From Nakazawaea peltata (taxonomy: Eukaryota > Ascomycota > Pichiomycetes > Alaninales > Pachysolenaceae), in NCBI GenBank assembly GCA_001599355.1, contig BCGQ01000010.1, positions 62,001-126,000 of the forward strand: a DNA stretch of 64,000 bases, given 5' to 3'. Under the pieces are notes generated by a model. It searched no databases, was not told the DNA's origin, and worked only from the letters and a program-made list of their open reading frames with translations. Numbering within the stretch: position 1 is the first letter of the stretch; every line of letters begins with the position of its first letter. The position numbers and the translations under genes were made by a program. Shown one piece after another: positions 1-64,000 of the stretch.

Positions 1-80
1 TTGTTGCGGACTAAATCAATTGCAAATTGACCAGAGATGTTTCCTGCTCCAATAATTCCCCAATTCAATTGATACGACAT
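1..80 (-). CDS. Gfo/Idh/MocA-family oxidoreductase, N-terminal fragment (runs off window)
   Basis: Only the first 26 codons lie in the window; the gene continues past position 1. The ATG is the complement of the cat at 78-80. The peptide begins MSYQLNWGIIGAGNISGQF, which is the start of a Rossmann fold: a beta strand, then GxGxxS/G-x-F, the NAD(P)-binding loop typical of Gfo/Idh/MocA dehydrogenases (for example dimeric dihydrodiol dehydrogenase or D-xylose dehydrogenase-like proteins). The substrate cannot be told from this fragment. It is divergent from the PhyH gene at 589. Confidence 0.7.
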   Translation of the reverse strand, partial: MSYQLNWGIIGAGNISGQFAIDLVRN

Positions 81-588
81 ATTATTTGTTACTTACTTAT
101 TTCACTTAACTATCCATTAGATAATTGAGATAAATCGGCTGGACCCCGTTTTTTAGCCTCCACGCAGTGAAATATGGCGCACTCGTAGGCTGCGATCGTT
201 TCTGGGCGGGAATTGCTTCTAGAAGGAGGGGAAGGAGGGGTGTGACGGGGAATTGAGGGAATAAGCGAGCTGAGAGCACTCTAGCTCGGATGTAGCAATA
301 GAGAGGCAATGGTTCAGAATGAATAATCGAGTGCTCGCAACCTCGTCCTCTAGTTATTAACTAGTCCTTGGACCCTGAGCTCCCCTGAGCTCCTCCATCA
401 AATGTAACATCCCCAGCGCAAGATGTTACATCTTTTTCCTATCAATGTAACTGATAAGAAAAATCTGCAACATTGGAATTTTATCAGTGAAATCGGGTGT
501 GATATATATAGGGTTGAAGGGTATAGGCAGATACCTATAGTCGATACCAATAGTCAAAGCATATCAAGTTATTACATATATCCAAGCT
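81..588. promoter_or_regulatory. Divergent intergenic region between the oxidoreductase and PhyH genes
   Basis: This 508-base stretch separates two divergently transcribed genes and should hold both promoters. A TATA-like run (gtgatatatataggg) lies near 499-513, about 80 bases before the PhyH start. Open frames inside it are short, lack family resemblance and are probably chance. Confidence 0.5.
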
Positions 589-1473
589 ATGCCAGCACAG
601 TTACCTCATAAACATCACGATGAAATAGCCGAAGACGGCTTCACTATTGTTCGTGGCTTTCTTAGTGAAGAAGAGATTAAGAAATACTATGATGCCAGTT
701 CAAAGCTCATCCAATACCTGAGAGAAGGTCATTGGCCATTAGTTCGTACTCGGGGGAAACAATTTCCACCTTGGCCTGTTGACTTCACTCCTGATATTTG
801 GGGTGTCACTTCGTTATTGCACCCAGATTTGAAGGAAATGTCCATACCATTCCACGATTTCTACGCCGATGAGAAGATGCTCCTCATTGTCCAGGACATT
901 TTACAATGTGACCAGGACCAAGTATCGATGGAGTTACTTAATATGCTTATTAATCCCTTGACCGATTTCGAATTGGACTGGCATCGTGATACTATTAAAC
1001 CGGAAGTCACTCCCGAACAAGAACTGGATGAATTATTACAGAATCCTTACGCTGGGGCTCAGTTCAATTTGGCCTTAACTAAGGATGACTGTTTAATTGT
1101 AGTTCCGAAATCTCATAATAGAGTAAGGACCCTGCTGGAAAGAGCTGTTACAGTTCCAAAGGAGACTCGTCAGGACTATATTGAGGGTCAAATCACCGTC
1201 CAATTGAATCCCGGTGATATTGTCTTCTACAACAATAACATCTTACATAGAGCTAAATATAACAGTAAGCAAGAACGTATTACGTTACATGGATCTTATG
1301 GTCATGTTGAACATGGTGAATCAAGAGCTAAGGGAGTTTTACAGCATGGTGTTGCTCAATGGTTGGACTCACTTGACACACATGATAAGACTTTGGCCGA
1401 TTTAAGAGACCGTTTAAAGAATTTAGCACTGAAATTCAAGGGCCAAGAGATCGTTTATGCTCTTGATGGTTGA
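589..1473 (+). CDS. Phytanoyl-CoA dioxygenase (PhyH) family protein, Fe(II)/2-oxoglutarate dependent
   Basis: A 294-residue protein of the PhyH superfamily of non-haem iron oxygenases. The iron triad is visible: H132-x-D134 in LDWHRDT and distal H220 in ILHRAKY, followed by R230 in QERITLHGSYG, where the family places the 2-oxoglutarate-binding arginine. The N-terminal segment DGFTIVRGFLSEEEI is also typical of the family. Fungal members act on varied small molecules and the substrate here is unknown; no clear peroxisomal targeting signal is seen at the C-terminus (it ends ALDG). The ATG at 589 is the first in frame and leads straight into the domain. The catalytic residues are intact, so an active enzyme is likely. 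Confidence 0.8.
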   Translation: MPAQLPHKHHDEIAEDGFTIVRGFLSEEEIKKYYDASSKLIQYLREGHWPLVRTRGKQFPPWPVDFTPDIWGVTSLLHPDLKEMSIPFHDFYADEKMLLIVQDILQCDQDQVSMELLNMLINPLTDFELDWHRDTIKPEVTPEQELDELLQNPYAGAQFNLALTKDDCLIVVPKSHNRVRTLLERAVTVPKETRQDYIEGQITVQLNPGDIVFYNNNILHRAKYNSKQERITLHGSYGHVEHGESRAKGVLQHGVAQWLDSLDTHDKTLADLRDRLKNLALKFKGQEIVYALDG

Positions 1474-2040
1474 TAAATATTAATTATATGGTTATGATTC
1501 ACTGAATCTGTAGTTCTTCAATTCTTAGAAGCCCCTTATCCCTACATGTCCTCGTCTCCGCCTGGCCCACTCCCATATCTTTCCCTCCCTTCTCCCTTCC
1601 TCCTATGTCCATCTTGTATTTTGCTACACCCCCAATTTATCCAAATAGCAAAACCAAAACATAGACGCAAGGTGAAAAAAAAACCATTCCGTTTTAGGCA
1701 ATTTGCGGGAAAATTTTTCAGGGCGATGCCGGATCAGCTGGTAGTCATCGAATGAGATGAAGAGATTGGCGATGGTAGTGTGACCATTTGAAGTCAAGAA
1801 GAAGGCATATTGATTCTGAGAGGGTTTAGTTGTAATTGGACAGAAATAAAGTTAATTCCACCATTATCCGGACCTGAACTGCATTTGTGAGCACCAGCAT
1901 AAAATCACGTCATTCTCTCTATAACCCCCAAAACAGGAAGTAGTGAAATTCGGCAGGTTTAGCAATTGATCTAAGCAATTGCTAAAAACTCACGATAAAA
2001 GATATTCAACCAGGAATTATTGGTGAAACATACAATAACC
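1474..2040. promoter_or_regulatory. Intergenic region upstream of the unidentified gene at 2041
   Basis: This stretch of 567 bases lies between two plus-strand genes. It starts as pyrimidine-rich DNA (1525-1640) and later contains A-rich runs. It presumably holds the PhyH terminator and the promoter of the next gene. No other feature was recognised. Confidence 0.4.
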
Positions 2041-6828: not shown

Positions 6829-7533
6829 ATGAATGTTTTTGAATGGGTGTTCGGAAAGAAGTTGACCCCACAAGAGAAATTGAGAAAGAACCAAAGAGCT
6901 CTTGAACGGACTCAAAGGGAGCTTGATAGAGAAAAGGTGAAACTTGAAAGACAAGAGAAGCAGATTGTGAGTGAGTTGAAGAAATCGGTCAAGAACAACC
7001 AGATAAAGCTGGCAAAGATCCAGGCTAAAGATCTTGTTCGTACCAAGAAGAATATAGAGAAATTCGGCAAGATGAAGGTACAGATACAGGCTATTTCGTT
7101 ACGAATCCAGAGCGTTCGGTCTTCTGACCAGATGGCCCAATCGATGAGATCAGCTACCTCATTGTTGAACCAAATGAACAGGTCTATGAATTTACCTCAG
7201 CTTTCCAAAATAGCCATGGACTTCCAACGTGAGAATGATATGATGGACCAAAGACAAGAAATGGTAGATGACACCATGGATGATTTGATGGATGACGAGT
7301 TGGATGAAGATGACGAGGAGGAAGCCGATGAGTTATTAAACCGTGTTCTTGATGAGGTCGGAATCGATTTGAATAGCAACTTACAAGGAGTTCCAAGCAC
7401 AGACCCACTTCTGAGCAGTAGAGACGCAGCTCCAGTTAGAGTAGCTGAGCCGATGGCTTCGGGAGGCCCATCTGCTGGGGCTGATGATGACTTGGAAGCC
7501 AGGCTCAACAATTTGAAGAAAGGAGGTGACTAG
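6829..7533 (+). CDS. DID4: ESCRT-III subunit Vps2/Did4 (CHMP2)
   Basis: A 234-residue Snf7-family protein. The basic N-terminal helical hairpin (MNVFEWVFGKKLTPQEKL, then KIQAKDLVRTKKNIEKF and AISLRIQSVRSSDQMAQSM) is near-identical in pattern to Did4/Vps2. The C-terminal half is acidic (DDLMDDELDEDDEEEADEL) and ends in a MIM-type helix, DDLEARLNNLKK, which in the family binds the MIT domain of the Vps4 ATPase. It acts with Vps24 and Snf7 on endosomal membranes in multivesicular-body formation. The codon at 7009-7011 is CTG where the yeast orthologue has Ala (GAAKIQAKD), one of the sites that indicate CUG-Ala decoding. Confidence 0.95.
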   Translation: MNVFEWVFGKKLTPQEKLRKNQRALERTQRELDREKVKLERQEKQIVSELKKSVKNNQIKLAKIQAKDLVRTKKNIEKFGKMKVQIQAISLRIQSVRSSDQMAQSMRSATSLLNQMNRSMNLPQLSKIAMDFQRENDMMDQRQEMVDDTMDDLMDDELDEDDEEEADELLNRVLDEVGIDLNSNLQGVPSTDPLLSSRDAAPVRVAEPMASGGPSAGADDDLEARLNNLKKGGD

Positions 7534-9924: not shown

Positions 9925-11574
9925 TTACAAGAAGTCGTCTTGCAGGATAAGCCCTTTTAACTCTTCAAGCGTTTGAGGATCCACTTTTCTAAATCTGGTG
10001 AGAATATCATCAGAGGTATTCTCTCCGGTCATTGCATCTTCATCTCCATAATCTTCCTCATCGTCATCATCTTCTTCGTCTTCATCTTCGATATCCATTG
10101 GATCGTCATCTTCCTCCTTGATACCTCTGTTAGAACGACCCTTGACTTTACCTTGAGTCCCACTAAGAGCTCTCAAACGGACAACGTTCAATCTCTGTTC
10201 AGAGATCGGTTCCTTAGACAGCAAACAGGTCAATTTATACTTCATTACCAGTCGGAATTGCTCAAGAGCCAGCGCAGTGTACCAGCCATCACGCTCGGTT
10301 ACCTTCAGAGAAAAACTATCTGGGGCATTAAGATATTCTTGCAATTGAGGGTCGACGATATCACAGAGCTGGAACGAACTGATCTTAGGAACATTGGTAC
10401 CATCGAATTTGAAATCTACGGGAATCTCGTAGGCCGAAATCAAGTCTGCCGCATCCTCAAAGTCCACCATTTTATCAGCGGAGTTTTCCATCAATGACTC
10501 ATCAATATCATTATCATTAACATGATCAGAAGCATCTCTACTTATAGATGTATGAACACGGAATCTCTCTGTCTGATAAATACCGAATTTTGGGGACGAC
10601 TTTGGATCGCAACCAAACTTTATATAAGACTGTTTCCAAGGACCTGTACGTGATGTATAAGCAACGTAGGCCAATGCATATTTGAATATATTTCTCCAAC
10701 TAGAAGGCACAATCGAATAAAGATGTCTACGTAGCCATATAGGTTTTTCTTCAAAGAGCTTCTCAAGGAGTTTGACACATTGAACAAGCTGATAATTAGT
10801 GGAGTTTTTAAGTGCCAGAGAGTCCAGCAGACCTTCAACCAGCTCTTGTGCATCACGTATGAACTTGACTAACTCTGGAGTTGGTCCTTGTGGCAGAGCA
10901 GTATCCCAAGGAACAAAAGACGTATTCACTTTGAAAGGTTGGTTCTTATTAACAAGTCGTACACTACCATCCTCGCTACGGACTGCTGTTCCTTTGTTAT
11001 TAGTGAAATTATAAGAGAAAGGCATGCGCACTTTTGAAAAGGAGGCGAATGGGGGCAATTCTAAGGGTTTTGAGACATCAAATTTCTCTCTCTCGACTAA
11101 TTGATCTTTGAATTGTTTCAATTTTTCATAATCATTACCAAAGAAAGTGTCTGTTACCTGTTGCAGAAGCAGATTATTAGCCGTATTGACCTGAAAATCG
11201 GCAATTTCACGGAAACGAAAGTTCTTATTGAGAATCAGCACGGGTTCAGCCTTATATGTATCCATATTGGCGCGTATAGCCAGTTGTAAATTTTGTCCAT
11301 GTCGCAGAAATTCACCTTTGGGGAGCTTGATCTTGACCAAGAAATTCTCTGAGGTGGAAACATCCGAATAGATTGGGTGCAGATAAGGGTCTTCAGGACG
11401 CAATCGCAACTCCAATTGAACATTTTTCTCCATCAACGATTCCCGAATTCTCTCGCTACCTCCAACTAATCCAATGGCTTTGTCATCGTTCACCACATTC
11501 AATGGGAATTCTATCGATGCGTATTTGGGGAGGTCTAAAGAGTGCTTCTTGGCGGGTATGGGATGAGAAGACAT
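9925..11574 (-). CDS. TFC1: RNA polymerase III factor TFIIIC subunit tau-95 (GTF3C5 family)
   Basis: The product is 549 residues. The central block (KPIWLRRHLYSIVP, YVAYTSRTGPWKQSYIKFGCDP) matches the Tfc1/GTF3C5 family, in which the protein contacts the A box of tRNA genes with tau-55. The N-terminal part (SIEFPLNVVNDDKAIGLVGG and LELRLRPEDPYLHP) is the dimerisation region of the family. The C-terminus is strongly acidic near residues 490-525. The start is the ATG at 11574 (MSSHPIPAKK); upstream codons open only at TTG. It sits between MRPL36 and a tRNA-Asn gene, on the conserved MRPL36-TFC1 adjacency. Confidence 0.9.
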   Translation of the reverse strand: MSSHPIPAKKHSLDLPKYASIEFPLNVVNDDKAIGLVGGSERIRESLMEKNVQLELRLRPEDPYLHPIYSDVSTSENFLVKIKLPKGEFLRHGQNLQLAIRANMDTYKAEPVLILNKNFRFREIADFQVNTANNLLLQQVTDTFFGNDYEKLKQFKDQLVEREKFDVSKPLELPPFASFSKVRMPFSYNFTNNKGTAVRSEDGSVRLVNKNQPFKVNTSFVPWDTALPQGPTPELVKFIRDAQELVEGLLDSLALKNSTNYQLVQCVKLLEKLFEEKPIWLRRHLYSIVPSSWRNIFKYALAYVAYTSRTGPWKQSYIKFGCDPKSSPKFGIYQTERFRVHTSISRDASDHVNDNDIDESLMENSADKMVDFEDAADLISAYEIPVDFKFDGTNVPKISSFQLCDIVDPQLQEYLNAPDSFSLKVTERDGWYTALALEQFRLVMKYKLTCLLSKEPISEQRLNVVRLRALSGTQGKVKGRSNRGIKEEDDDPMDIEDEDEEDDDDEEDYGDEDAMTGENTSDDILTRFRKVDPQTLEELKGLILQDDFL

Positions 11575-11714: not shown

Positions 11715-11718
11715 TAAA

Positions 11719-11792
11719 CGACCATGGCTGGGATCGAACCAGCGATCTTCCGATTAACAGTCGGATGCCTTAACCAGCTTGGCCACACAGTC
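11719..11792 (-). tRNA. tRNA-Asn (GTT anticodon), no intron
   Basis: The 74-nt cloverleaf folds cleanly. The 7-bp acceptor stem is GACTGTG paired with CATGGTC (two G-U pairs), with discriminator G. The A box appears in TGGCCAAGCTGG, the anticodon loop is TGTTAAT, and the T arm is CTGGTTCGATCCCAG, giving a perfect B box. The anticodon GTT reads AAC/AAT. There is no intron and CCA is not encoded, as expected. Confidence 0.97.
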
Positions 11793-11953
11793 GATTTAGT
11801 AAACGTTCAGCGCTCATAAACGGCTATGATGATACTTATTGATCAGAAATACACGATCTTTTTAAAAATTTTCTTGATTGTTAAAGGGCGAGTACTTTTA
11901 GTTGTTGAGTTGAATAGCAGCTGAAGATAAAGGGACCAGTGAACAAGTTGAAG

Positions 11954-13091: not shown

Positions 13092-14300
13092 ATGATTTAT
13101 AGATGCTTCCCTTTGGGTAGGTATTACTCTACAGCGCTGAGATTCGGTAGACCTTCAAATAATTTAAGTAGTGGTATTGTGGGGCTTGCAAATGTGGGAA
13201 AGTCAAGTTTCTTTCAACTGATCACGAAATCGAAATTGGGAAACCCAGCAAATTATCCATTTGCTACAATCAAACCAGAGGAGGCTCGAGTTCAAGTCCC
13301 TAGTCCCAAGTTAGACCATCTTCAACTGTTGTATGGCTCGAGAGAAAAAGTTCCTAGTGACTTGAAAGTGATAGATATTGCAGGTCTTGTTCGTGGTGCG
13401 TCTAGTGGAGCAGGTTTGGGGAATCAGTTCTTAAACGATATCCGTCAAGTCGATGGTATATTTGAAGTAGTACGTGCATTTGCTGATCCTGAGATCACTC
13501 ATGTCGAAGGAAGTGTCGACCCGGTTAGAGATTTGACTGTAGTCTCTGATGAGTTGTTATTGAAAGATATGGAGTTTGTTGAGAACGCTATTGAGAAGCT
13601 TCAGAAATCATTTAAAAAGAATATCAAATCACCTGTAATGAGTAATATTGAGAAGGAGATCGCAGTGTTAGAGAGATGCTACGATTGGTTGATGGAAGGA
13701 CAGAAGATCGCCAGCAATGAAAGCTGGACTGATGAAGATGTAGAAATTCTTAACGGTTTTAACTTACTTACTACTAAGCCAACTGTCTATCTTATGAACG
13801 TTTCGGAGGAAGACTACTTGGCCGGCGAAAACAAATATTTGGCAGAGGTTCAAGAATGGATAGACACTTACTCTCCAAGGAGTCCAGTTATTTTGTTCTC
13901 TGCCTCTTATGAATCTAAATTAGTTGAGCAATATCAAGAGGATGGAGGTGAAAACGACGAGATTTTGAGTACATCTGTAATTCCTTCTTTGATCACACAC
14001 ATGCGTGAATCCTTGGGTTTGATTAGCTTCTATACCTGTGGAGAGAAGGAAGCTCGGCAGTGGACAGTACGTGAGGGAAGGACCGCCCCAGAATGTGCTG
14101 GAGTGATTCACACCGACTTGCAAAAGACATTCATCAACGCTTTAGTGATCAAGTATGCTGATTTGGAATCTAAGAAACCTCCATTTGATGAGAAAGAAAT
14201 TGTCAAGAGTGGGAAACAGCAGAGAGCTGGAAAGACCTACATCATTGAAGATGGTGACGTAGTACTTTTTAAGTCCTCTCTGGCTAAGGGGAAGAAATAA
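13092..14300 (+). CDS. YLF2: YchF/OLA1-type P-loop ATPase, probably mitochondrial
   Basis: The product is 402 residues, with a basic presequence-like N-terminus (MIYRCFPLGRYYSTALRFGR) before the G domain. The G1 loop is GLANVGKSS, G3 is DIAGLVRGAS, and the YchF signature NPANYPFATIKPEE is present. A C-terminal TGS domain follows (FYTCGEKEARQW, VIHTDLQKTFINA). Members prefer ATP to GTP. It is the Ylf2 rather than the Ola1 branch because of the presequence and its adjacency to OTU2. The CTG at 13218-13220 falls at the alanine of FF(R/Q)AITKS, a site that supports CUG-Ala decoding. The upstream in-frame start is TTG, so the ATG at 13092 is used. Confidence 0.9.
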   Translation: MIYRCFPLGRYYSTALRFGRPSNNLSSGIVGLANVGKSSFFQLITKSKLGNPANYPFATIKPEEARVQVPSPKLDHLQLLYGSREKVPSDLKVIDIAGLVRGASSGAGLGNQFLNDIRQVDGIFEVVRAFADPEITHVEGSVDPVRDLTVVSDELLLKDMEFVENAIEKLQKSFKKNIKSPVMSNIEKEIAVLERCYDWLMEGQKIASNESWTDEDVEILNGFNLLTTKPTVYLMNVSEEDYLAGENKYLAEVQEWIDTYSPRSPVILFSASYESKLVEQYQEDGGENDEILSTSVIPSLITHMRESLGLISFYTCGEKEARQWTVREGRTAPECAGVIHTDLQKTFINALVIKYADLESKKPPFDEKEIVKSGKQQRAGKTYIIEDGDVVLFKSSLAKGKK

Positions 14301-36377: not shown

Positions 36378-37280
36378 ATGTCCGAACTGGAAATCCTTGC
36401 CTCATACCCACAAATTTCCGCACCTTCTAAGTTCACCGGTTACACCGGTAACTTGACCGAGTCCGAGAAGCTGGCTTTACTGAAGTTGAGAGAAGAGTTA
36501 GTTGCTTTGAACTACGAGTTGCGTCTCGATGACGCCTCTTTGTTACGTTTCTTGCGTGCTCGTAAGTTCGATGTAGCTAAGGCTAAGGAGATGTTTGTCA
36601 ATTGCGAGAATTGGAGAAAGTCGTTCGGTGTAGACAACATTTTGACCGAGTTCAAATACGAGGAGAAACCTATCGTTGCTAAGTACTATCCTCAATATTA
36701 CCACAAGACCGATATTGAAGGTAGACCAGTTTACATTGAAGAATTGGGTAGTGTTAACATTACCGAGATGTATAAGATTACCACTCAAGAGAGAATGTTG
36801 AAGAATTTGGTATGGGAATACGAATCCTTTGTCAAGTACAGATTACCAGCTTGTTCCAGAAAGGAAGGTCATTTAGTTGAGACTTCTTGTACCATCTTGG
36901 ATTTGAAGGGTATCAGTATCAGTGCTGCTTCTCAAGTTTTGAGTTATGTCAGAGAGGCTTCTAACATTGGTCAGAACTACTATCCTGAAAGAATGGGTAA
37001 ATTCTACCTTATCAATGCACCATTTGGTTTCAGTACCGTTTTCAGATTATTCAAGCCATTTTTGGACCCTGTCACCGTCTCCAAGATTTTCATCTTGGGT
37101 TCCTCTTACAAGTCTGAGTTGTTAAAGCTGATTCCAAAGGAGAATTTGCCAACCAAGTTTGGTGGTTCCTCCGAAGTAAGTGAAGAAACTGGTGGTTTGC
37201 TCTTGTCTGACATTGGTCCATGGAGAGATCCTAAGTACATTGGTCCAGAAGGTGAGGCTCCACATTCTTTCCAATTATAG
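36378..37280 (+). CDS. SEC14: Phosphatidylinositol/phosphatidylcholine transfer protein Sec14
   Basis: The product is 300 residues, the family's usual length. It has the CRAL-TRIO N-terminal helices ([19 protein letters not shown]) and the lipid-binding fold ([87 protein letters not shown]). The ending [18 protein letters not shown] is nearly invariant. Sec14 maintains Golgi lipid composition for secretion. In contrast to S. cerevisiae, no intron interrupts the start. The CTG at 36480-36482 matches Ala in the S. cerevisiae ALAELR segment. Confidence 0.97.
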
Positions 37281-41155: not shown

Positions 41156-43861
41156 TTATTTAATGCCCAATTCCGAGGCCAAAGCTGTAGAAAGATCGTC
41201 AAAGATAATTTTATCATTGATCTCACTATCGATCTGGAAACCATTAGCAGGCATACCAGAAACTGGAACCTTCCTAGCTCTATTGAACAGTACCATCGAC
41301 AATTGTAAGTTATCCAACGGACCCTCTACTAGACAACCCTTTGTTCTGAAATGGTTCAATAATTGACTCCATAAATGGCTTAAACTCAATAATTTTGGAT
41401 TTCCTAAGATGACTAATCCGTATTTCAGTCTGGTGATGGCGACATTCATTCTTCTAGGGTCACTCAAGAAACCAATCTGCTTGGACTCGTTAGATCTTAC
41501 ACACGAGAAGATGATGAAATCCTTTTCACGACCTTGGAAAGCATCGATAGAGTCTACTTCAACCTCAGCATACTTAGACTTATCAAAGAGGGTCCCGTTC
41601 ATTTGCATGTACTTGGTAATGAAGGTACGCTGACCTTCATAAGGTGTAATAATACCAATTTGGGAAGGCAGAATTCCTCTGTTGAACAAATCAGTAACAA
41701 CTTTCTCACAGTTCATCAGCTCCAGTCTATTTAAATAAGAATATCCACTTGGAGAGATCTCTTCTTTACCATAATTACACCAGAACATCATTGGAATACC
41801 AGCAATCGGCCAGTTAAAACGGTTGATAGCAACATTTCTATGAGTTTCCGAAGATACTCCGTTTTGCAATGATCCTTCATAGAAATGATTGGATGGGAAT
41901 TCGGAAAGATAAGGATCCATTCTGTATTGAACTTCTAATCTCAAAGGATCATTTCCGCACATGATTAATCTTTCGAAAAGAGACTGACCTAATCCGAAAT
42001 TGGACAGTTTCTTGTGAAGAATAACAGGACCCAATTGTTTGTGATCACCTACCAAAATTACCTTCATTGCTCCTTTGACAATAGGAATTAAGGTCTCCGG
42101 CTCACACAGCTGAGTACTCTCATCGATCAATACATTCTTGAATCTCATTTTACCAATTCTTGGATCACCAGCCCCGATACATGTTGTACAAACAACATCC
42201 AGCTTTTCGAGGATGTCTTGCTCTGCCTTCGTGAACAACTTAGTATATTTGTTAAAGTCTTTGTTTGATAATTCACCAATTTCGTCCTTCAAACGGATCA
42301 ATTTCAAAAGTTCTGGGCTCAGACGATCCTTAACAAGATTGTGTAACAGAATATGATCAACACTGGAGTCGATAACTTCCCTGGATCTGGAAAAAAGACG
42401 AACCACATTCAATCCAATCGAGTCTAATTTCAGGGCAAGATGATCAACCGAAACATTCGAAGGAGCACAACACAACACGGTGTTGTTTGATTTTGTTGAT
42501 TTCAGTTCTTTAGTAGAAGTAGATTCACAAAGCTTATAAATGATAGCCAGAGAAGTTGTTGTCTTACCAGTTCCTGGTGGTCCTTGGATTAAGGTCAATG
42601 GGGAATTCACAGCATGACTAACAGCTCTTAACTGAGAAGGATTCAAACGGAATTTTCCCAATCCAGACAAACCAGAACCATCTTCGGCCTCAGTATAATG
42701 CTCGTCACCATCGAGACCTAACAATTTCGACAGAATCAACTTACTGACGGTGCGCTTCTTCTTCAGCTGGGCAAAATTTTTAAGAGCACCACACATCCGT
42801 TCATATGGAATATCTTTCCAAATGAACTGAACTGTAAAACCAGAAGTAACTCCTACAGGGACTGGAGTTTTGCTTTTCTCTAATTCAACAGTGAAAAATT
42901 CACTTGATGTATCAGGGAGTTTGATGATATAACCCTCATTCTTCCAAGGCCTTCCTTCAATATCATTATGCTCAATTACTACTGGGTTGAATAAACCAAT
43001 TCCTCCCAATGATGAAGTGGAGTCAATCAAACTGAGGGCAAATGTCGCCGTAGTTTTCTTGTTTAATCCTATACCCCAAGTAAGCAGGATTTTCTCCATC
43101 GACTGAGCCTCGAATACTTCTTTTTGACACTCCGACTCCAGGTACAATAAGGGAGCAAATGACTCCTTATATTGAACAGGATCTGGGAACTGGATGTATA
43201 TCGGCTCTAAAGTGTCAAGAGCAGCAGATGCAATCTCAACATCGTGTAAGGTCGCAGTAGCATTAGATTTCCATTGCGACTCAAGAGCCTTAATCTGAGA
43301 TTGAGATACCAGCGGTCTTCCCAACAGCTCATACTGCTCTTGAGAAACATCCTGAACTAACCAAGGCACAAACAGTCTCTCTTCAATCAAAGACTGCCAA
43401 TCATTCGTGTCCCAATTACTATCTTTCAGCTGAGCACAAGGAATTCTACATAAGGTCACCACAGTATGCTCTTCTTTCAGGAAAACGAACCCTAATAAAA
43501 GTACATTCTGGTTCCCACAATTGTAACATTCCAAAGTAGTATCACCCAAATGAGAGTCCTTATGCAATGAGACAGTATGATGTCTAGAAATGATCAAATG
43601 CAGTACAATATGAGATCTTCCCGAGTCCTTGAGACGAGAATTGCAAAACCATCTTGAACAGCCTTCACATTTCATAACACATGAAACATCATGTGCACCA
43701 CAATAGGCACAGGCATGCTCATGAACAGGGACCAAAGACTCCATACTATGTCCATTGTCGCCAGAAGTCAGACTTTTCATCGCTTCCAGGATGAGCCTCT
43801 CATCGTCGTCATCCTCATGCAAATGCAGACTCGCTCCTTCACTAAAGAGTAACTGATCCAT
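41156..43861 (-). CDS. NAM7: RNA helicase Upf1 (nonsense-mediated decay)
   Basis: The product is 901 residues. The Cys/His-rich CH domain, which contacts Upf2, spans roughly residues 40-150 (CAYCGAHDVSC, MKCEGCSRWFCN, LECYNCGNQN). SF1 helicase motifs follow: QGPPGTGKTTTS (Walker A, about 425), LIDESTQ (II), LVGDHKQLGP (III), VQYRMDPYLSEFPS (IV), DAFQGREKDFI (V) and NVAIT-R-x-KYG (VI). Six CTG codons at conserved sites align with alanine in S. cerevisiae, including motif VI TRAKYG (41426-41428) and STQASEPE (42107-42109). The C-terminal tail is shorter than in S. cerevisiae. The start is ATG 43861; the upstream frame opens only at GTG. Confidence 0.96.
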   Translation of the reverse strand: MDQLLFSEGASLHLHEDDDDERLILEAMKSLTSGDNGHSMESLVPVHEHACAYCGAHDVSCVMKCEGCSRWFCNSRLKDSGRSHIVLHLIISRHHTVSLHKDSHLGDTTLECYNCGNQNVLLLGFVFLKEEHTVVTLCRIPCAQLKDSNWDTNDWQSLIEERLFVPWLVQDVSQEQYELLGRPLVSQSQIKALESQWKSNATATLHDVEIASAALDTLEPIYIQFPDPVQYKESFAPLLYLESECQKEVFEAQSMEKILLTWGIGLNKKTTATFALSLIDSTSSLGGIGLFNPVVIEHNDIEGRPWKNEGYIIKLPDTSSEFFTVELEKSKTPVPVGVTSGFTVQFIWKDIPYERMCGALKNFAQLKKKRTVSKLILSKLLGLDGDEHYTEAEDGSGLSGLGKFRLNPSQLRAVSHAVNSPLTLIQGPPGTGKTTTSLAIIYKLCESTSTKELKSTKSNNTVLCCAPSNVSVDHLALKLDSIGLNVVRLFSRSREVIDSSVDHILLHNLVKDRLSPELLKLIRLKDEIGELSNKDFNKYTKLFTKAEQDILEKLDVVCTTCIGAGDPRIGKMRFKNVLIDESTQLCEPETLIPIVKGAMKVILVGDHKQLGPVILHKKLSNFGLGQSLFERLIMCGNDPLRLEVQYRMDPYLSEFPSNHFYEGSLQNGVSSETHRNVAINRFNWPIAGIPMMFWCNYGKEEISPSGYSYLNRLELMNCEKVVTDLFNRGILPSQIGIITPYEGQRTFITKYMQMNGTLFDKSKYAEVEVDSIDAFQGREKDFIIFSCVRSNESKQIGFLSDPRRMNVAITRLKYGLVILGNPKLLSLSHLWSQLLNHFRTKGCLVEGPLDNLQLSMVLFNRARKVPVSGMPANGFQIDSEINDKIIFDDLSTALASELGIK

Positions 43862-47164: not shown

Positions 47165-48691
47165 ATGCAAATCACCGAAACTGTACAACCTTATATGGAG
47201 CTGGTCGTTAAATACCTGGAAAACGGGTCTTTGACTGTTGCCAGACTGTTGTCTGAGTTGCCTTTGAATGTCAGGTACCTGTTGATGGTAGCCTCAGCTA
47301 CTTCAATGCTTACCGTTGGTTCTTATGCGACTTTACTGAAGCCAATGAATGCCGATGCCCCTAAGCAGACCCACAAATTGTTTGATCCCTCAGACAATTA
47401 CAAGTCATGCTTATCCTTCGTTGACGATGAAGAGGAGCAAGATGCCTTGAATTTGACTACTTGGAACCTGATTTTAATTCCTTTTGTCGGGAGTGCCACC
47501 TTGTACTCTTTTTACTACTTGTTGAAGAACAATTTACTGCAGTTTTTGTTCTACATATCTCTTAATACCGTCATTTCTAGTTCTATTGCCACTTTTTATA
47601 CCCTGAACTACTTGATTAAGGCTTCCGTGCGTAAGATCACTTACTGGGGCCGCTTGAACTATAGAAAGTGCAATTTTTTGAGCTACTACAGAATCACTTT
47701 TTCTAAAGATACTACTTATGGTAAACAGGTAGGGTACATCGAGACTAATTCAAGTCCTCTCAAGTCGGACGAGAGTGTCTCTTCATTTAACCAGTACTCA
47801 AACTTCTATTACTCCACTTCAGAGATTATTTCCTTTTGGACTTCTCTCGGTATCAACGGAATTTATCTTCTGACCGTTCTTACGCAAGCGGACAGTGGAA
47901 CAAAATGGATTGTTGATAATATCGTAGCAGTATCGTTGGCTATGTTTGGTATTATGAACTTGAAGGTCCCTAAATTTAGCACCGGAGTTGTCTTGTTATC
48001 AGGATTATTCTTCTTTGACATCTTTTTCGTTTTCGGAAATGACGTCATGGTGACAGTAGCTACTGGTATAGAGATGCCGATGAAATTGTCCTTCCCTAGT
48101 CTGGTTGCAGCTGTCGATAATTCAGTAAAGTTTTCTATCTTGGGGCTCGGTGACATTGTTGTCCCTGCCGTCTTTACTTCCCTCTGTCTCCGTTACGATT
48201 TATGGAGACATCATAAACTGAATCCTGGAACTCAATTCCATCATTTAACTCCATTCTCCAAGCCTACTTTCTTCCTGTCCGTATTCGGCTATGTTGCGGG
48301 GTTAATTCTGTCTGTAGTTTCTTTAGAGTATAACAAAGTAGGACAACCTCTGTTGATGTGGATTGTACCTTCAATTTTCTTCTCAGTGGGAGTGTCTTGC
48401 CTCTGGAAGGGTGACTTTGCAGATATTGTCAATTATGAAGAGATTCTGTTCCAGAAAAAGGAAGAAGAATATGACGACGAGGAAGAGGATGAGTATTTAG
48501 AAGAAGAGGAAGACGTTGAATGGGATGAATCCGAGTACCAAGTCGAGGAGCTCGGTCAAACAGTTTATATAATTGATGAGGATGAGGATGAGAAACTAGT
48601 CACTCCAATGTCTTACAATGACTACTTTGAACAAACCGAATTTGACTCGGAATCAGATGCAGGAGATCTTGATTTCATACCAACTGACTAA
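47165..48691 (+). CDS. YPF1: Intramembrane aspartyl protease (signal peptide peptidase family)
   Basis: The product is 508 residues with about nine transmembrane segments. The first catalytic motif reads FFFDIFFVFG (D285, where most relatives have YD). The second is ILGLGDIVVP (G-x-G-D, D330). The third, the PAL motif, is read as QP-CTG-LMWIVP at codons 394-399; with CTG as alanine it becomes the invariant P-A-L. A highly acidic cytosolic tail follows (EEEYDDEEEDEYLEEEEDVEW). The S. cerevisiae counterpart, Ypf1, is an ER protease. The ATG at 47165 gives a plausible N-terminus before the first membrane segment. Confidence 0.92.
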   Translation: MQITETVQPYMELVVKYLENGSLTVARLLSELPLNVRYLLMVASATSMLTVGSYATLLKPMNADAPKQTHKLFDPSDNYKSCLSFVDDEEEQDALNLTTWNLILIPFVGSATLYSFYYLLKNNLLQFLFYISLNTVISSSIATFYTLNYLIKASVRKITYWGRLNYRKCNFLSYYRITFSKDTTYGKQVGYIETNSSPLKSDESVSSFNQYSNFYYSTSEIISFWTSLGINGIYLLTVLTQADSGTKWIVDNIVAVSLAMFGIMNLKVPKFSTGVVLLSGLFFFDIFFVFGNDVMVTVATGIEMPMKLSFPSLVAAVDNSVKFSILGLGDIVVPAVFTSLCLRYDLWRHHKLNPGTQFHHLTPFSKPTFFLSVFGYVAGLILSVVSLEYNKVGQPLLMWIVPSIFFSVGVSCLWKGDFADIVNYEEILFQKKEEEYDDEEEDEYLEEEEDVEWDESEYQVEELGQTVYIIDEDEDEKLVTPMSYNDYFEQTEFDSESDAGDLDFIPTD

Positions 48692-50145: not shown

Positions 50146-51255
50146 ATGTTCTCTGCCACCAAATTGTCTTCTAGATCTATCTTGAGAAAGAACTTCTTGA
50201 GATTGCAATCCACTATCCCAGAGACCCAAAAGGGTGTTATTTTCTACGAAAATAACGGTAAGTTGGAATACAAGGACATTCCAGTTCCAAAGCCAAAGCC
50301 AAATGAAATCTTGATCAATGTCAAGTACTCTGGTGTCTGTCACACTGACTTGCACGCCTGGAAGGGTGACTGGCCATTGCCAGTTAAGCTTCCATTGGTT
50401 GGTGGTCACGAGGGTGCTGGTATCGTCGTTGCCAAGGGTGAATCCGTTACCAACTTCGAGATCGGAGATTTGGCCGGTATTAAGTGGTTGAACGGTTCTT
50501 GTATGGCCTGTGAGTTCTGTGAGAACGGTGACGAATCCAACTGTCTGAAGGCTGACTTGTCTGGTTACACCCACGACGGTTCTTTCCAACAATATGCCAC
50601 TGCTGACCTGATTCAAGCCGCTAAGTTGGCTCCAGGTACCGACTTGGCTCAAGTTGCCCCAATCTTGTGTGCTGGTATCACCGTTTACAAGGCTTTGAAG
50701 ACTGCTGACTTGAAGGCCGGTCACTGGGTTGCCATTTCTGGTGCTGCCGGTGGTTTGGGTTCTTTGGCTGTTCAATTTGCTAAGGCCATGGGTTACAGAG
50801 TCGTTGGTATCGACGGTGGTGAAGGTAAGGAGGACTTGTTCAAGTCTATTGGTGGTGATGTCTTCGTTGACTTCACCAAGTCCAAGGACATGACCCAAGA
50901 GATCATCGATGCCACCAACGGTGGTCCACACGGTGTTATCAACGTCTCCGTCTCCGAGGCTGCTATTTCTAACTCCTTGAAGTTCGTTAGACCAACTGGT
51001 ACCGTCGTCTTGGTCGGTATGCCAGCCGGTGCCGTCGTCAAGTCCGAGGTCTTCGACCACGTCGTCAAGTCTTTGAGTATCAAGGGTTCTTACGTCGGTA
51101 ACAGAGCTGACACCAGAGAGGCCTTGGAGTTCTTCGAGAGAGGTATGGTCAAGTCTCCAATCAAGATTGCCGGTTTGTCTGAGTTGCCAGAGATCTTCGA
51201 ATTGATGGAACAAGGTAAGATCTTGGGTCGTTACGTTGTTGACACTTCTTACTAA
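50146..51255 (+). CDS. ADH3: Zinc alcohol dehydrogenase, mitochondrial form
   Basis: The product is 369 residues, with a basic presequence ([23 protein letters not shown]) before the Adh core. Catalytic zinc ligands sit in [10 protein letters not shown] and GGHEGAG. The structural zinc Cys cluster is [15 protein letters not shown], and the NAD fold shows GAAGGLGS and [11 protein letters not shown]. It ends GRYVVDTSY. Codon use is extremely biased (TTG, GGT, CCA), as for a highly expressed gene; this also creates a long but meaningless antisense frame. The CTG at 50608-50610 falls at the alanine of YATADAVQAA. The presequence suggests the mitochondrial ADH3-type role in redox shuttling, and S. 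cerevisiae ADH3 (YMR083W) is close to NAM7. Confidence 0.95.
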
Positions 51256-51758: not shown

Positions 51759-51762
51759 ATGA
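51745..51762 (+). promoter_or_regulatory. Upstream ORF whose stop overlaps the VPS10 start codon
   Basis: ATG AAG ATT TCG ATA TGA: its TGA (51760-51762) overlaps the main ATG (51759-51761). Ribosomes terminating here would end on the main start, so the leader may tune receptor output. The uORF ATG has a weaker context (atacATGa) than the main one (gatATGa). Confidence 0.5.
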
Positions 51763-54413
51763 GTATTGTGGGGAAAGTTTGGATTCTCTGCTTTTTGGTT
51801 TTAGTATCGGGAGTGACGGCCCTGTTTGCTGGTTCTGAGTCAACGAATTACACAGGAGTACAACAATATGGAGACCTTGTCTCAGGTCAAATAATAGTCG
51901 ATATTAGAGACAATAAAGAAGATGAGGAAGGTGATACCAACCCCGATGAGGAGGATATGGACAAAGAGAAGAGTAAAGATGGGTTGAAAACGGAGAAAAT
52001 TCGCACCGAGATGTTTGTATTTGATGGTAAAGTCAAAAACTACATCTATTTAGAGAGACCTCCTAACAAAATGACTAGTGATGAAACCATCGTTGCCTTG
52101 ACTGATCACAACAAGGTGTATATCACACATGACCAAGGAACAACTTGGGAGCATTTCTCTAGTGACAATGATGATGAGGTATTGCAAATCCAGTTGAATG
52201 AGTATAATCCAGACGACATTTACTTGATCTGTTCTCACTCTAAAGTGATTTACTCTAAAGACCGTGGGTTCACCTGGAAATCTTTCAGAACACCAGTCCA
52301 AATGATCCCAGGTCTGGAAAGATCATTGTATTTCCACCCTAAAAGACCAGCTTGGTTGATCTGGGTAGGAGAAACCGGATGTGAAGATGTCACTACTTGT
52401 AGAACTGTACTGTATGTTTCAAGGGCCTACGGTAAAAGATGGTCTCTTTTATTGGAGAATGTGAACGTCTGTGAATTCTTGGGAGGTTTAAAGAAAGATG
52501 TCAATCCTAAATTAATTATGTGTGAAAGACCACTGTCCGAGTCCAATGGGTTCGAAAGTGAATTGATATACTCTCTTGATTTCTTCAAAGAACAGAAGAA
52601 GTTGATCTACAAAAACGTAATCGGCTACACCCAACTGGACCAGTTCCTCATTCTGCTGACACATGATGAGCACGACAATTTACATCTGCATGTCACCGTC
52701 GACGGAAGAAACTGGGTAGACTCTTTATTCCCTCCAGACTTGACTATTGTCAAACAACAGCTGTACACAGTTTTATCTGGAATCACCAAGTCTCTCTTCT
52801 TACATATCACCACCAACTCAAGATTGGGAACTGAGTATGGACAAATAGTCAAATCTAATGGTAATGGACAAAACTTTGTCACTTCATTAACTCATGTTAA
52901 CAGGAACACAGCTGGATTCGTCGACTTTGAACAAATAACCGGTCTCGAAGGTATCATGATCGCCAATACTGTAGAAAATTGGAAAGATTCCAAATTGGGG
53001 GCTAAGAAGAAATTAAAGACCCGTATTTCATATGACGATGGAGTTCATTGGGAATATTTGAACCCTCCACAATTCGACTCCGACAAGAACCGTTATCCAG
53101 GTTGCGAGAATAAACCATTATCCGAATGTTCCTTGAATTTGCATGGGTTTACCGAAAGAACTGACCTGAGAGATACTTTGAGTTCCGGTTCTGCTGTAGG
53201 GATGATGATTGGTGTAGGAAATGTAGGCAAAACGTTATCAAATTACTACGACTCTCATACCTTCTTCACCAGAGATGGTGGTATCAGTTGGAAGGAGATC
53301 AAGAAAGGTGTCTACATGTGGGAATACGGAGACCAAGGCTCTATAATTGTACTCGTAAATGAAAAAGAGGATACAGACAAAGTTTTATATAGTGTTGATG
53401 AAGGGGATACCTGGAAAGAGTTCAAATTCGTGGACGAGAAGGTCAGAGTCTACGATATCTCCACGGTTCCTTCCGATAACTCTCGTAAATTCTTGCTCTT
53501 CACCAGAATGCCATTACATGGTGGTGACAAGACCAGAGTAATCCAAATCGATTTCAGCTTGTACCATAAACGTCAATGTTCTCTTGATTTGAAAAATCCT
53601 GACGAAGACGATTTCGAAATGTGGACTCCTAAACATCCATTCCAACCAGATAACTGTTTATTCGGTCACCAACTGGAGTACTACCGTAAAATCCCAGGTA
53701 AAGATTGTTTCATCGGTAACAAATTGTACAATCAAAAGAAGATCATCAGAAATTGTCCTTGTCAAAGACATGATTTCGAGTGTGACTTCAATTACTACCG
53801 TGATTCTGATGATGGAACTTGTAAATTGATCCCTGGGTTGTCAGCTCCAGACCATTCTTTGATCTGTAAAGAGGATAAAAACCTGATCGAGTACAGCATT
53901 CCAACTGGGTACAGATTATCTGAACTCACAACCTGTGCGGGGGGTAAAGATTGGGATAAAGCTGAGATGAGACCTTGTCCTGGAAAGAAAGACAAGTTCA
54001 ATAAGAAACATCCAGGAACTCCTTTCATCTGGAAAGCTCTCTCCTTCTTGGTAGTAACCGGTGTCTTGGGTCTTATTGTATATTTACTGTTACAATACTA
54101 CAAGAGCTCCCAAGGGGAGATCAGATTAAATGATGAGGCCAATTTGGAATTCATGGATTCGTTCAACATCGTCGATGAGTTGAAATATGTCCTGAAACAG
54201 TCTCTTTTAATGGGGACCTTAGCCATTGACGAGATCAGAACCTTTGCTCGTCGCTTTAAATTCTCTAATCGTGGTTTCCGTAACGATATAGATGCCTATA
54301 TAGTCTCGGATGATGTGGATGAGGAAAACGAGTTCCTTAACTCCGAACCTCAAGATGTGGATGATCATATAGCTGATATTCTCGGAAGTGATGAAGAGGA
54401 TTTACTGAACTGA
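51759..54413 (+). CDS. Vps10/sortilin-type vacuolar sorting receptor with one Vps10 domain
   Basis: The product is 884 residues. The signal peptide is MSIVGKVWILCFLVLVSGVTA. A ten-bladed Vps10 domain follows, with Asp-box repeats such as THDQGTTWEHF, SKDRGFTWKSF, SYDDGVHWEYL, TRDGGISWKEI and SVDEGDTWKEF. The cysteine-rich 10CC module comes next (CLFGHQLEYYRK, CPCQRHDFECDFNYYRD). A transmembrane helix lies near residues 755-785. The cytoplasmic tail ends IADILGSDEEDLLN, with an acidic dileucine-like signal. S. cerevisiae Vps10 has two such domains (1579 residues); this protein has one, as sortilin does. It should shuttle between Golgi and endosome with hydrolases such as carboxypeptidase Y. 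Confidence 0.92.
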   Translation: MSIVGKVWILCFLVLVSGVTALFAGSESTNYTGVQQYGDLVSGQIIVDIRDNKEDEEGDTNPDEEDMDKEKSKDGLKTEKIRTEMFVFDGKVKNYIYLERPPNKMTSDETIVALTDHNKVYITHDQGTTWEHFSSDNDDEVLQIQLNEYNPDDIYLICSHSKVIYSKDRGFTWKSFRTPVQMIPGLERSLYFHPKRPAWLIWVGETGCEDVTTCRTVLYVSRAYGKRWSLLLENVNVCEFLGGLKKDVNPKLIMCERPLSESNGFESELIYSLDFFKEQKKLIYKNVIGYTQLDQFLILLTHDEHDNLHLHVTVDGRNWVDSLFPPDLTIVKQQLYTVLSGITKSLFLHITTNSRLGTEYGQIVKSNGNGQNFVTSLTHVNRNTAGFVDFEQITGLEGIMIANTVENWKDSKLGAKKKLKTRISYDDGVHWEYLNPPQFDSDKNRYPGCENKPLSECSLNLHGFTERTDLRDTLSSGSAVGMMIGVGNVGKTLSNYYDSHTFFTRDGGISWKEIKKGVYMWEYGDQGSIIVLVNEKEDTDKVLYSVDEGDTWKEFKFVDEKVRVYDISTVPSDNSRKFLLFTRMPLHGGDKTRVIQIDFSLYHKRQCSLDLKNPDEDDFEMWTPKHPFQPDNCLFGHQLEYYRKIPGKDCFIGNKLYNQKKIIRNCPCQRHDFECDFNYYRDSDDGTCKLIPGLSAPDHSLICKEDKNLIEYSIPTGYRLSELTTCAGGKDWDKAEMRPCPGKKDKFNKKHPGTPFIWKALSFLVVTGVLGLIVYLLLQYYKSSQGEIRLNDEANLEFMDSFNIVDELKYVLKQSLLMGTLAIDEIRTFARRFKFSNRGFRNDIDAYIVSDDVDEENEFLNSEPQDVDDHIADILGSDEEDLLN

Positions 54414-60567: not shown

Positions 60568-63500
60568 ATGCCTCCCCTTAAAATGGCCAATGGCGTGGCG
60601 CCAGATGACTCGCTGCCAGTGATACCACACATCACCGCCAATATCATCCCGCTCCTGAACATACTCAAAAACTACTCGGAAAACAGCTACAAAGAGTTGA
60701 CCCAGCTATTGTCCACCTTACAATCGGACAGTCTATCAGACGTGGAAAAGAAGAGGTCTTTATTGGTACTTCTTGTGACGCTTCGAGAGAATTTCATCCG
60801 TCTCTATGTGTTGAACAAGTGGTCTTCCAATGCCGAGCAGTTCGGCAAGTTGATTGACCTTTTAAATTGGCTTCGACTCACCATCGAACAGATCTCCATG
60901 CATTCAATATGGGGGTTGAAGAACTTGAACACCTCTTTGACCAGTGCCAAATTGCCCAACCCAGATTTAATCACTTCATTAGAGGTCTTACTCAACGGTA
61001 GACCCAAGTTACCTTCCTATAATTTCCTCCCCAAGAAGAAACTTTCCCCGGAGGTGGTGTTACGTACTTTGAAGAATTTGAATGTGAGCCTCCTGCTCCG
61101 TTTATCACTCTTGGACGAGCTTCCGTACCTGTTTTACAACTATGAGATCAAAGATGGTAAGTGTTTCTTCAATGTCGACCGCCAATTCGACTGTTGTGTT
61201 TCCATTGGTGACGATAATGACGAGCAATCTCAGTTCTTTTTGATCGATTTCAAGTTTAATTTCACTTTCAAGGACAATTCCATAGTATATGATGAGAAAA
61301 CTTCACTTCTAAAGAGTCACCATCGTTTGGAGAATGTCGCTAACCAGATTTTGTTGAACAACAGACTGAATCCTAGCGGCGGATTATCAGATTTGTACCG
61401 ACTTTTATCTCAGTATACTCTGAATTACAAGTTATTCTTATTACATAAGCAGTTGGTCAATATGAGAGTCGGGTATTGGAAGTCACAGATCAGTCACACT
61501 TATTCCGCCGATAAGAACGTGATAGTCATTCATTATTGGTTAAAATTGCATCATTTGAGGAAAAAGACTGGCCGTGGTGGAGCTACTGTACCTTCTACAG
61601 TTCCAGGAGCTGGATCTGCCGCAGTAGCTGGTGCCGCAATCACCCCAGCACCTTCAAGTACATCTCTCAATGCTTTAGGAGCCAATGGAGCTGTTGCAGG
61701 TCTGTCTTCCAACGCTTCATCTAGTGCCGGGGCTTCTTCAAGCTCCGATGTCGTTTCTTCTTACATTGAAATCTCAATCAAAGACGACAGTAATACTTTA
61801 CAATTGAAATGGATCAAAGACAACGAGTTATTCGAGGTAGTACCTGACTTTGACCTCACTAAAGACGAGCTTAATATCGAAGAAGTGTTAACTTCAATCA
61901 CCGAGAAACATGTCAATATGAAAATCATGGATTTGAGTGAAAGAATCTCCAAGTTGAACCCTTCTCATCAATTAAAATCTTCAACTCCCTCTATTCCAAC
62001 TATGTCATTGATTGTACAATTGACTTCCACCAAGAATATCACCCTGACCATCTCTCCATTGTCAGGATTACTCTACTTTATCAATCCTACTCCGTTATTA
62101 AGTGATCTTCTTACAGGGCTCAATCACACTTTGGCAACGGACTTTGATAACCTCCCACATCTGTTACTTTCTGTGATCCTCAAGACCAATTTTGCATTAT
62201 TAGATTCTCTCATGAAGGCCACCGATTGGGTCCAAAACACTATTATTGTTTCTGACACATCTAAGATCTTGGCTACAAAGCCTAATGACTCTTTACAATC
62301 TTTACAATACTATAGACGTAAAGATTGGCCTCAAGGATGGTTCCTTATTTCGTGTCTCCAAGTTGATTCGACCCTGCTGCCTGTCAAATTCCGTTGGTTT
62401 GTTCTGAGAATCAAATTGTATCTCGGAACTTGGTCCGTTAGATGGTGTGAGGAGTTGGATACTACCAACAACACCGAAAATATGCATGAATTATTAAAGG
62501 ATTTGGCAGTTCATCTGAGATCCAGACTCTTATCACAATTAATCACCGAAGATTTGGAGAACAATAACGCCATCCTTAAGGTCTTTGATAATGAACTTCC
62601 TGCTATCTCATTCCTCCAAGATGAGAAAGAAGATTCAGATGGTCCTACACTTCTCATCAAAAACTCCAGTATCTTTAAGATCCCTAATAGTCATGAGAAT
62701 TTGATAGTCAAGATTGCTTTGAATAATTCAAGCAGTTTGAAGATTTGTATCATTGGAAAATTGAAGAATTTCAAGATCAATGAGCTTCATGAAGAGTTGA
62801 CTAAAGAAACTGAGATGTCAGTGTTGGATTATGATCCCGAGTCGAATGTTTTCCAAGTGAAATCCGTCATTGATGACACTGTAATCACCACGTCTGAATT
62901 GACAGCTGCATCTATTATTCTGACCTCGGCTACGGCAACCTCCACGACCACTAATGGCACTGGGAATGGCCATTCTGCTTCTGCATCCGTTTCTGGAACT
63001 CCAATGGTTGTAGTAATGAACGGGAACTCTTCTAAAATGGATATAAAGAGCAATTTGCTCAGCTCCTCAGTCGAATTGTTAAGCAGATTTTCGCTGTTAT
63101 TGAACGTTTTAGACGTTTTGTCCAAAGAGAATATCACAATAATATCGAATAGTTTGACCACAATCAAGTTTATGTACGATACTTCTAGTGCATCTTTGAA
63201 TTTAATCTCCAACGACGAAGTGTCCATCCAGTTTGATGAAGGCAATCCTCATAAATTGTTGAATATTCAGATTGCTCATTTCTTGAAAAGATTTGGGTTA
63301 CCGAAGACATTAAGAGTATTGAGATTATCCTCCCCCATCGTTTCTAAGCTTTCTCAACTGGTTAATGTGAATCCTCAATTGACTTTAATTACGCACGAAA
63401 TCAACTATTTCAAGCTTCTCTGCTCCAATGTTCTCGTTGACATACTCGTTGAGTATTCTAAGAAAACAGCTCTTATAAAGGTAGAGCTGATGCAACAAAA

Positions 63501-63666
63501 AGACCAGCAACTGCCAGCTCAAAGCTCAGAAAAGATCAACAAGTTCATAGAGCTGAATTATGCTAATGAAAAGTTTGCTAATCAAAATTTGTTCAAAGTT
63601 GATACCGATAATTTGGACTCGGTCATCGATAAGGTCACTCTGTTTGTAGTGGGTGAGTTTAAGTAG
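60568..63666 (+). CDS. RGR1: Mediator tail/scaffold subunit Med14 (Rgr1)
   Basis: The product is 1032 residues. The Med14 N-terminal domain is clear (IIPLLNILKNYSENSYKELT, LRENFIRLYVLNKWSSNAEQ, PDLITSLEVLLNGRPKLPSY). It links the Mediator core to the tail. Low-complexity Ala/Ser/Gly segments interrupt the middle at about residues 340-400 and 785-815, typical of fungal Med14. The carboxy-terminal part is helical (LPKTLRVLRLSSPIVSKLSQ). The ATG at 60568 is first; another ATG 15 bases later has a stronger context (aaaATGG), so the true start may be either. The extended frame upstream begins at TTG. Confidence 0.9.
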   Translation: MPPLKMANGVAPDDSLPVIPHITANIIPLLNILKNYSENSYKELTQLLSTLQSDSLSDVEKKRSLLVLLVTLRENFIRLYVLNKWSSNAEQFGKLIDLLNWLRLTIEQISMHSIWGLKNLNTSLTSAKLPNPDLITSLEVLLNGRPKLPSYNFLPKKKLSPEVVLRTLKNLNVSLLLRLSLLDELPYLFYNYEIKDGKCFFNVDRQFDCCVSIGDDNDEQSQFFLIDFKFNFTFKDNSIVYDEKTSLLKSHHRLENVANQILLNNRLNPSGGLSDLYRLLSQYTLNYKLFLLHKQLVNMRVGYWKSQISHTYSADKNVIVIHYWLKLHHLRKKTGRGGATVPSTVPGAGSAAVAGAAITPAPSSTSLNALGANGAVAGLSSNASSSAGASSSSDVVSSYIEISIKDDSNTLQLKWIKDNELFEVVPDFDLTKDELNIEEVLTSITEKHVNMKIMDLSERISKLNPSHQLKSSTPSIPTMSLIVQLTSTKNITLTISPLSGLLYFINPTPLLSDLLTGLNHTLATDFDNLPHLLLSVILKTNFALLDSLMKATDWVQNTIIVSDTSKILATKPNDSLQSLQYYRRKDWPQGWFLISCLQVDSTLLPVKFRWFVLRIKLYLGTWSVRWCEELDTTNNTENMHELLKDLAVHLRSRLLSQLITEDLENNNAILKVFDNELPAISFLQDEKEDSDGPTLLIKNSSIFKIPNSHENLIVKIALNNSSSLKICIIGKLKNFKINELHEELTKETEMSVLDYDPESNVFQVKSVIDDTVITTSELTAASIILTSATATSTTTNGTGNGHSASASVSGTPMVVVMNGNSSKMDIKSNLLSSSVELLSRFSLLLNVLDVLSKENITIISNSLTTIKFMYDTSSASLNLISNDEVSIQFDEGNPHKLLNIQIAHFLKRFGLPKTLRVLRLSSPIVSKLSQLVNVNPQLTLITHEINYFKLLCSNVLVDILVEYSKKTALIKVELMQQKDQQLPAQSSEKINKFIELNYANEKFANQNLFKVDTDNLDSVIDKVTLFVVGEFK

Positions 63667-63863
63667 ATAGATGTATAAAAATGTACCATATAATCATGAA
63701 AGAGAGTAAGAAGGTAGGACAGTAGGACAGTAGGAGAGTGATATCGACTGGATATTCAATATTAACTAATAATGGCAGGTGAACAGCAACATTTGAATAC
63801 TGATGCTGCTCAGTTATTACGGTAATCTTAGGAAGATTTGTGGAAGAAAAAAAAAAGAAAACT

Positions 63864-63937
63864 TGATTTCGCCCAGGATCGAACTGGGGACCTTCTGCGT
63901 GTTAAGCAGATGCCATGACCAACTAGACCACGAAACC
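63864..63937 (-). tRNA. tRNA-Val (AAC anticodon), no intron
   Basis: The 74-nt cloverleaf has acceptor stem GGTTTCG with CGAAATC and discriminator A, A box TGGTCTAGTTGG, an anticodon stem TCTGC/GCAGA around loop TTAACAC, and T arm CCCAGTTCGATCCTGGG. The anticodon AAC becomes IAC after editing and reads GTT/GTC. A T-rich run after the 3' end (63847-63860 on the complement) should terminate transcription. Confidence 0.97.
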
Positions 63938-64000
63938 AATCTTCGAGAGATTATTTTACCAATTTGTCCCAGTAGCTGAGAAGGACACACTCTAACCATA

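Follow-up and report, generated by a model that had tools for sequence, protein, structure and literature searches.

The subject of this report is the meaning of the codon CTG in a 64-kb stretch of DNA, referred to throughout as the window, in which the evidence supports a reading of CTG as alanine. The window has a G+C content of 40.2% and holds 28 open reading frames (ORFs) that start with ATG and encode at least 150 amino acids, with 252 CTG codons among them. A first-pass annotation had proposed the alanine reading from 14 codons, placed at 7009 (DID4), 13218 (YLF2), 27731, 28010 and 28601 (TPS1), 36480 (SEC14), 41426, 41717, 42107, 42200, 42431 and 42548 (NAM7), 48350 (YPF1) and 50608 (ADH3), where minus-strand coordinates give the lowest base of the codon. 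All 14 are in-frame CTG codons of the ORFs named. The further claim that the family residue at each is alanine holds for 13 of them in the first homologue used, taken from solved structures, although two of these have another residue in the second homologue (valine in 2ohf at 13218, glutamate in 2wjv at 42431); for the codon at 7009, where no homologue was aligned here, the only evidence is the Snf7 Pfam score (alanine 117.5, serine 116.5, leucine 115.6 bits). The observation that CTG codons lie at alanine positions is confirmed. The list was nevertheless a favourable selection, since it omitted CTG codons from these proteins where the homologues carry something other than alanine, among them 50545 (ADH3, proline), 28862 (TPS1, serine in both homologues) and 43141, given by its top base (NAM7, leucine in both homologues), and CTG was therefore tested blind.

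Residues facing CTG codons

For the column test, CTG was masked as X in ten chosen proteins (NAM7, PP2C, TPS1, MED14, ADH3, SEC14, TFC1, VPS10, YLF2 and YPF1), which were searched against solved structures; fourteen homologues, with at least one and at most two for each protein, were then realigned by script. In this way 70 CTG codons were aligned, of 117 in the ten proteins and 252 in all 28 ORFs. When the residue of the first homologue is tabulated at all 70, alanine is the commonest with 26 sites, followed by serine, glutamate, lysine and leucine with six each, aspartate with four, glutamine and proline with three each, and eight further residue types seen once or twice. The enrichment for leucine or serine that the first-pass annotation had named as telling against alanine is not what the columns contain. 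Away from CTG and GCN codons, alanine stands in the first homologue at 125 of 3,623 sites (3.5%), so that 26 of 70 lies far beyond chance (binomial P about 2e-20). Where at least five of the ten neighbouring residues are identical, alanine is found at 20 of 31 CTG sites, compared with 67 of 111 GCN sites. Two homologues could be seen at 36 CTG sites and agree at 22, with alanine at 15 of these and serine, asparagine, leucine, aspartate, tyrosine, lysine and glutamine at one each. The same count gives alanine at 24 of 36 GCN sites, leucine at 104 of 117 sites for the other leucine codons and serine at 41 of 69 sites for the serine codons.

All 20 residues were tried as candidates for CTG. BLOSUM62 scores summed over the 70 sites are highest for alanine (+71 half-bits), ahead of serine (+29), glutamate (-12) and leucine (-87), and under a likelihood derived from the codons of the window itself serine falls 21.6 and leucine 113.9 natural-log units below alanine. 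Bootstrap resampling picks alanine in 9,882 of 10,000 replicates by site and in 9,877 of 10,000 by protein. As a control every codon was masked in turn, and 55 of the 57 that had ten or more sites returned their standard residue, the exceptions being CTG itself and AGC (18 sites, a tie between asparagine and serine). Three codons with fewer than ten sites, and so outside the 57, also miss: CGA (9 sites), CGC (4) and CTA (6).

A second line of evidence comes from Pfam. Twenty of the 28 ORFs were scanned with CTG translated as alanine, leucine and serine (tables 26, 1 and 12), and seven more under table 26 only; the ORF at 35992-36456 stood outside these scans. The sum covers 30 matches, after 17 of the 47 listed families were dropped for overlap or redundancy (nine LRR families, TGS, Rad17, AAA_22, CRAL_TRIO_2, AAA_30, AAA_19, ADH_zinc_N_2 and Hydrolase_4), and some of the matches kept, such as OTU, Cyclin_N and YchF-GTPase_C, have no CTG inside them. 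Over the 30 matches alanine gains 118.4 bits on leucine (Wilcoxon p 5.5e-6), leading in 22 domains with three ties, and 30.0 bits on serine (Wilcoxon p 0.038), leading in 17 with four ties. Masked columns and Pfam scores under the three tables bear out the decoding of CTG as alanine without recourse to the orthologues behind the first-pass annotation, and the BLOSUM62, likelihood and Pfam totals agree with the earlier statement that neither leucine nor serine fits as well.

Individual genes and codon use

The NAM7/UPF1 helicase ORF (41156..43861, minus strand) has 24 of its 26 CTG codons aligned and alanine in both homologues at 43478, 42548, 42347, 42200, 42107, 42005, 41717 and 41426 (lowest base, as for the other minus-strand positions in this paragraph). 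In the TPS1 ORF (27533..28957, minus strand) all seven CTG codons are aligned and both homologues have alanine at 28601, 28073, 28010 and 27731, and in the PP2C phosphatase ORF (26071..27132, minus strand) seven of eight are aligned, with alanine in both at 26695, 26494 and 26335. The YchF/OLA1-type GTPase ORF (YLF2; 13092..14300, plus strand) has four CTG codons, two of them aligned, and 13218 faces alanine in 1ni3. The SEC14 ORF (36378..37280, plus strand) has alanine at 36480 and lysine, lysine and glutamine at its other three CTG codons, and the ADH3-like ORF (50146..51255, plus strand) has just the two CTG codons already given, at 50608 and 50545. Of the 15 CTG codons in the signal peptide peptidase ORF (YPF1; 47165..48691, plus strand) four are aligned, facing alanine at 48350, serine at 48275 and leucine at 48101 and 48308; leucine is best in its columns and alanine in its Pfam score. 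The DID4/Snf7-family ORF (6829..7533, plus strand) has two CTG codons, one of them that at 7009, and its Pfam score peaks with alanine. In the TFC1/Tau95 ORF (9925..11574, minus strand) 14 of 16 CTG codons are aligned at low identity (29%); serine ranks first in these columns and alanine falls outside the top three. The MED14 ORF (60568..63666, plus strand) has 20 CTG codons, of which four are aligned (alanine, serine, proline and leucine), and its Med14 Pfam score is 194.1 with serine, 191.5 with alanine and 184.7 with leucine. Two of the 15 CTG codons of the VPS10 ORF (51759..54413, plus strand) are aligned, facing arginine and threonine, and its Sortilin-Vps10 score is 490 with alanine, 483.1 with leucine and 480 with serine.

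Two tRNA genes lie on the minus strand, a tRNA-Asn (GTT) at 11718..11793, found by both ARAGORN and Rfam, and a tRNA-Val (AAC) at 63863..63938, found by ARAGORN and without an Rfam listing at the gathering score. Two stretches have no ATG ORF of 150 amino acids, 14301-19852 (5.6 kb) and 21380-26070 (4.7 kb); they flank a cyclin gene (19853-21379), their largest ORFs are of 91 and 115 amino acids, and their G+C content is about that of the rest of the window. The ORF at 35992-36456, of 154 amino acids, overlaps the ends of two others and is probably not a gene.

Composition was counted without that last ORF, over 27 ORFs with 13,346 codons, 251 of them CTG. Typical yeast proteomes have about 5.5% alanine and 9.5% leucine. 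In the window alanine makes up 4.13% of residues without CTG and 6.01% with it, and leucine 10.01% without and 11.89% with it; judged against those typical values, the composition agrees better with CTG as alanine than with CTG as leucine. Read in this way, CTG is the commonest of 802 alanine codons (CTG 251, GCT 246, GCC 172, GCA 104, GCG 29). As the first-pass annotation stated, standard-code translations are wrong at every CTG, which affects about 1.9% of residues. At least two CTG codons stand in succession at 12 places in the 28 ORFs, and in the RFC1/CTF18-like ORF (33729-36059) four successive CTG codons are followed by a serine codon and another CTG (35415-35432, minus strand).

CTG is scarce in two genes, ADH3 (50146-51255) and VMA2 (29411-30622), which together have 2 CTG among 66 alanine codons, compared with 249 of 736 elsewhere (p 3.5e-9, for a pair picked after inspection of the per-gene table). 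The AGA share of arginine codons is highest in these ORFs (0.89 each). CTG may be disfavoured in genes with high expression. The NAP ORF (54476-55228), which resembles VMA2 in its use of TTG (0.72 and 0.73), has CTG as 6 of 16 alanine codons, and across genes the CTG share of alanine codons shows just a weak, non-significant trend with TTG use (rho -0.32, p 0.10). The VMA2 ORF as counted starts within the gene, and the sequence upstream suggests an intron: by eye, on the minus strand between about 30900 and 31416, a putative first exon (MVLSDKEL) lies at 31416, with a likely GTAAGT donor at 31391, and the main exon seems to run from about 30918, preceded by a TACTAAC branch site at 30933. The piece past the putative intron seems, again by eye, to add a CTG at 30902-30904, which would bring the count for the pair to 3 of 67 or slightly more.

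Competing readings of CTG

Several observations weigh against the alanine reading. Alanine is the best residue in just four of the ten proteins taken singly (NAM7, PP2C, TPS1 and MED14), another being ahead in ADH3, SEC14, TFC1, VPS10, YLF2 and YPF1 (2 to 14 sites each), with leucine best in YPF1 (four sites) and serine in TFC1 (14 sites). Leucine is ahead of alanine in five of the 30 Pfam domains, by at most 0.3 bits, and serine in nine, by at most 2.6 bits (Med14). In a comparison of five residue classes at two thresholds, with p values uncorrected, leucine faces 6 of 70 CTG sites but 1 of 170 GCN sites (p 0.0028); for residues that are charged or polar the corresponding counts are 22 of 70 and 24 of 170 (p 0.0035). 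Finally, no tRNA with a CAG anticodon was found in the window: ARAGORN with introns allowed gives only the Asn(GTT) and Val(AAC) genes, and Rfam at the gathering score only tRNA-Asn.

A reading of CTG as serine, as in the CUG-Ser code (table 12), is favoured by the TPS1 codon at 28862, the TFC1 columns and the nine domains in which serine leads, and serine is the second-best residue overall. However, CTG faces serine at 6 of 70 sites, about the rate for GCN (16 of 170), whilst serine codons do so at 125 of 293; a single one of the 22 agreeing sites is serine, and serine trails alanine on both the Pfam and the likelihood totals. On these grounds we rejected the CUG-Ser code, to which we give a very small chance. 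The idea that CTG is ordinary leucine, the original list being a chance or selected set, gains something from the ill-fitting sites that were omitted, from the leucine excess over GCN and from the four YPF1 columns; but leucine stands opposite the other leucine codons in 232 of 364 cases, compared with 6 of 70 for CTG and one of the 22 agreeing sites, and leucine has a strongly negative BLOSUM62 sum as well as the loss of 118 bits in Pfam. The standard code was rejected on the column test and Pfam, and its probability is negligible.

A subtler possibility is that CUG is mostly alanine and partly leucine, either because decoding is ambiguous or because two CAG tRNAs compete. In its favour are a three-way mixture fit, which returns 0.76 alanine, 0.10 leucine and 0.14 serine, the leucine excess and the NAM7 codon at 43141. 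The sites facing leucine in the first homologue (5′ base) are 43141 and 43312 in NAM7, 61420 in MED14, 10272 in TFC1, and 48101 and 48308 in YPF1. All six lie where one to four of the ten neighbours are identical in the first homologue, and 43141 is the only one with leucine in both homologues; where at least five of ten neighbours are identical, leucine faces none of the 31 CTG sites. The excess may reflect fossils of an earlier CUG-Leu, slight ambiguity or alignment noise, and old CUG-Leu codons at tolerant sites, or noise, explain it just as well. Partial leucine decoding seems to us very improbable, if less so than serine. The polar excess would fit a somewhat higher frequency of CTG at variable positions. 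It is conceivable, though still unlikely, that the CTG codons are of mixed origin, mostly new or converted alanine codons with a minority marking old leucine positions, as fossils or through residual leucine insertion. In that case the code change in this lineage would not have gone through a stage in which every CUG codon was lost, and the window would reveal old leucine sites that tolerated the change. Taking the evidence as a whole, we have very high confidence in an account in which the window is budding-yeast nuclear DNA with CUG as alanine (NCBI table 26). The meaning of CUG is established from the sequence itself, and the mechanism and the likely host given below are proposed from the literature.

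Proposed mechanism, probable host and other code changes

With no CAG tRNA found in the window, both the tRNA and the clade are inferred. By analogy with published work (PMC5951914), the anticodon of a tRNA-Ala gene would have mutated to CAG, and alanyl-tRNA synthetase, whose recognition does not depend on specific bases in the anticodon, would charge the resulting tRNA(CAG), leading to insertion of alanine at CUG; the ancestral tRNA-Leu(CAG) would have been lost. The statement of the first-pass annotation that CUG-to-Ala reassignment is established for a clade of Pachysolen, Nakazawaea and Peterozyma is in keeping with the literature, where the code is reported in all three (PMC5951914). These genera belong to the Pachysolenaceae, order Alaninales (NCBI taxonomy), and because PMC5951914 names a single CUG-Ala clade, the host most likely belongs to that order. 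The code is already in the literature and carries its own NCBI table number, so that the result, though sound, is no novelty; the first descriptions of the code are cited in PMC5951914 and PMC11540330. What the window offers is a rare type of event, a sense codon changing its amino acid in a nuclear genome, that is evident from 64 kb alone, in a species whose heavy use of CTG for alanine would make it well suited to studying how a codon comes to be used normally after reassignment.

In clades that have changed their code, CUG is described as relatively rare and as tending to fall outside well-aligned regions (PMC5951914). Here, in contrast, CTG is common, and just slightly rarer in the aligned parts of the ten proteins (70 of 240 alanine codons) than in the unaligned parts (47 of 119; p 0.056). 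The closest match is the code of Pachysolen tannophilus (table 26, Alaninales), with which the window shares the placing of CTG at alanine columns and the standing of CTG as the sole clear departure from the standard code among the 57 codons tested, setting aside the AGC tie. The G+C content, to be set beside the 42.3% given for Nakazawaea ambrosiae in PMC10106607, is only a hint. In the CUG-Ser1 code of the Candida clade (table 12) CTG has likewise left leucine, but the new residue here is alanine, and CTG faces serine no more than GCN does. The same codon is affected in CUG-Ser2 yeasts (Ascoidea, Saccharomycopsis), a group in which competing CAG tRNAs are reported (PMC5951914), but the window differs from these in having CTG at strongly conserved alanine sites.
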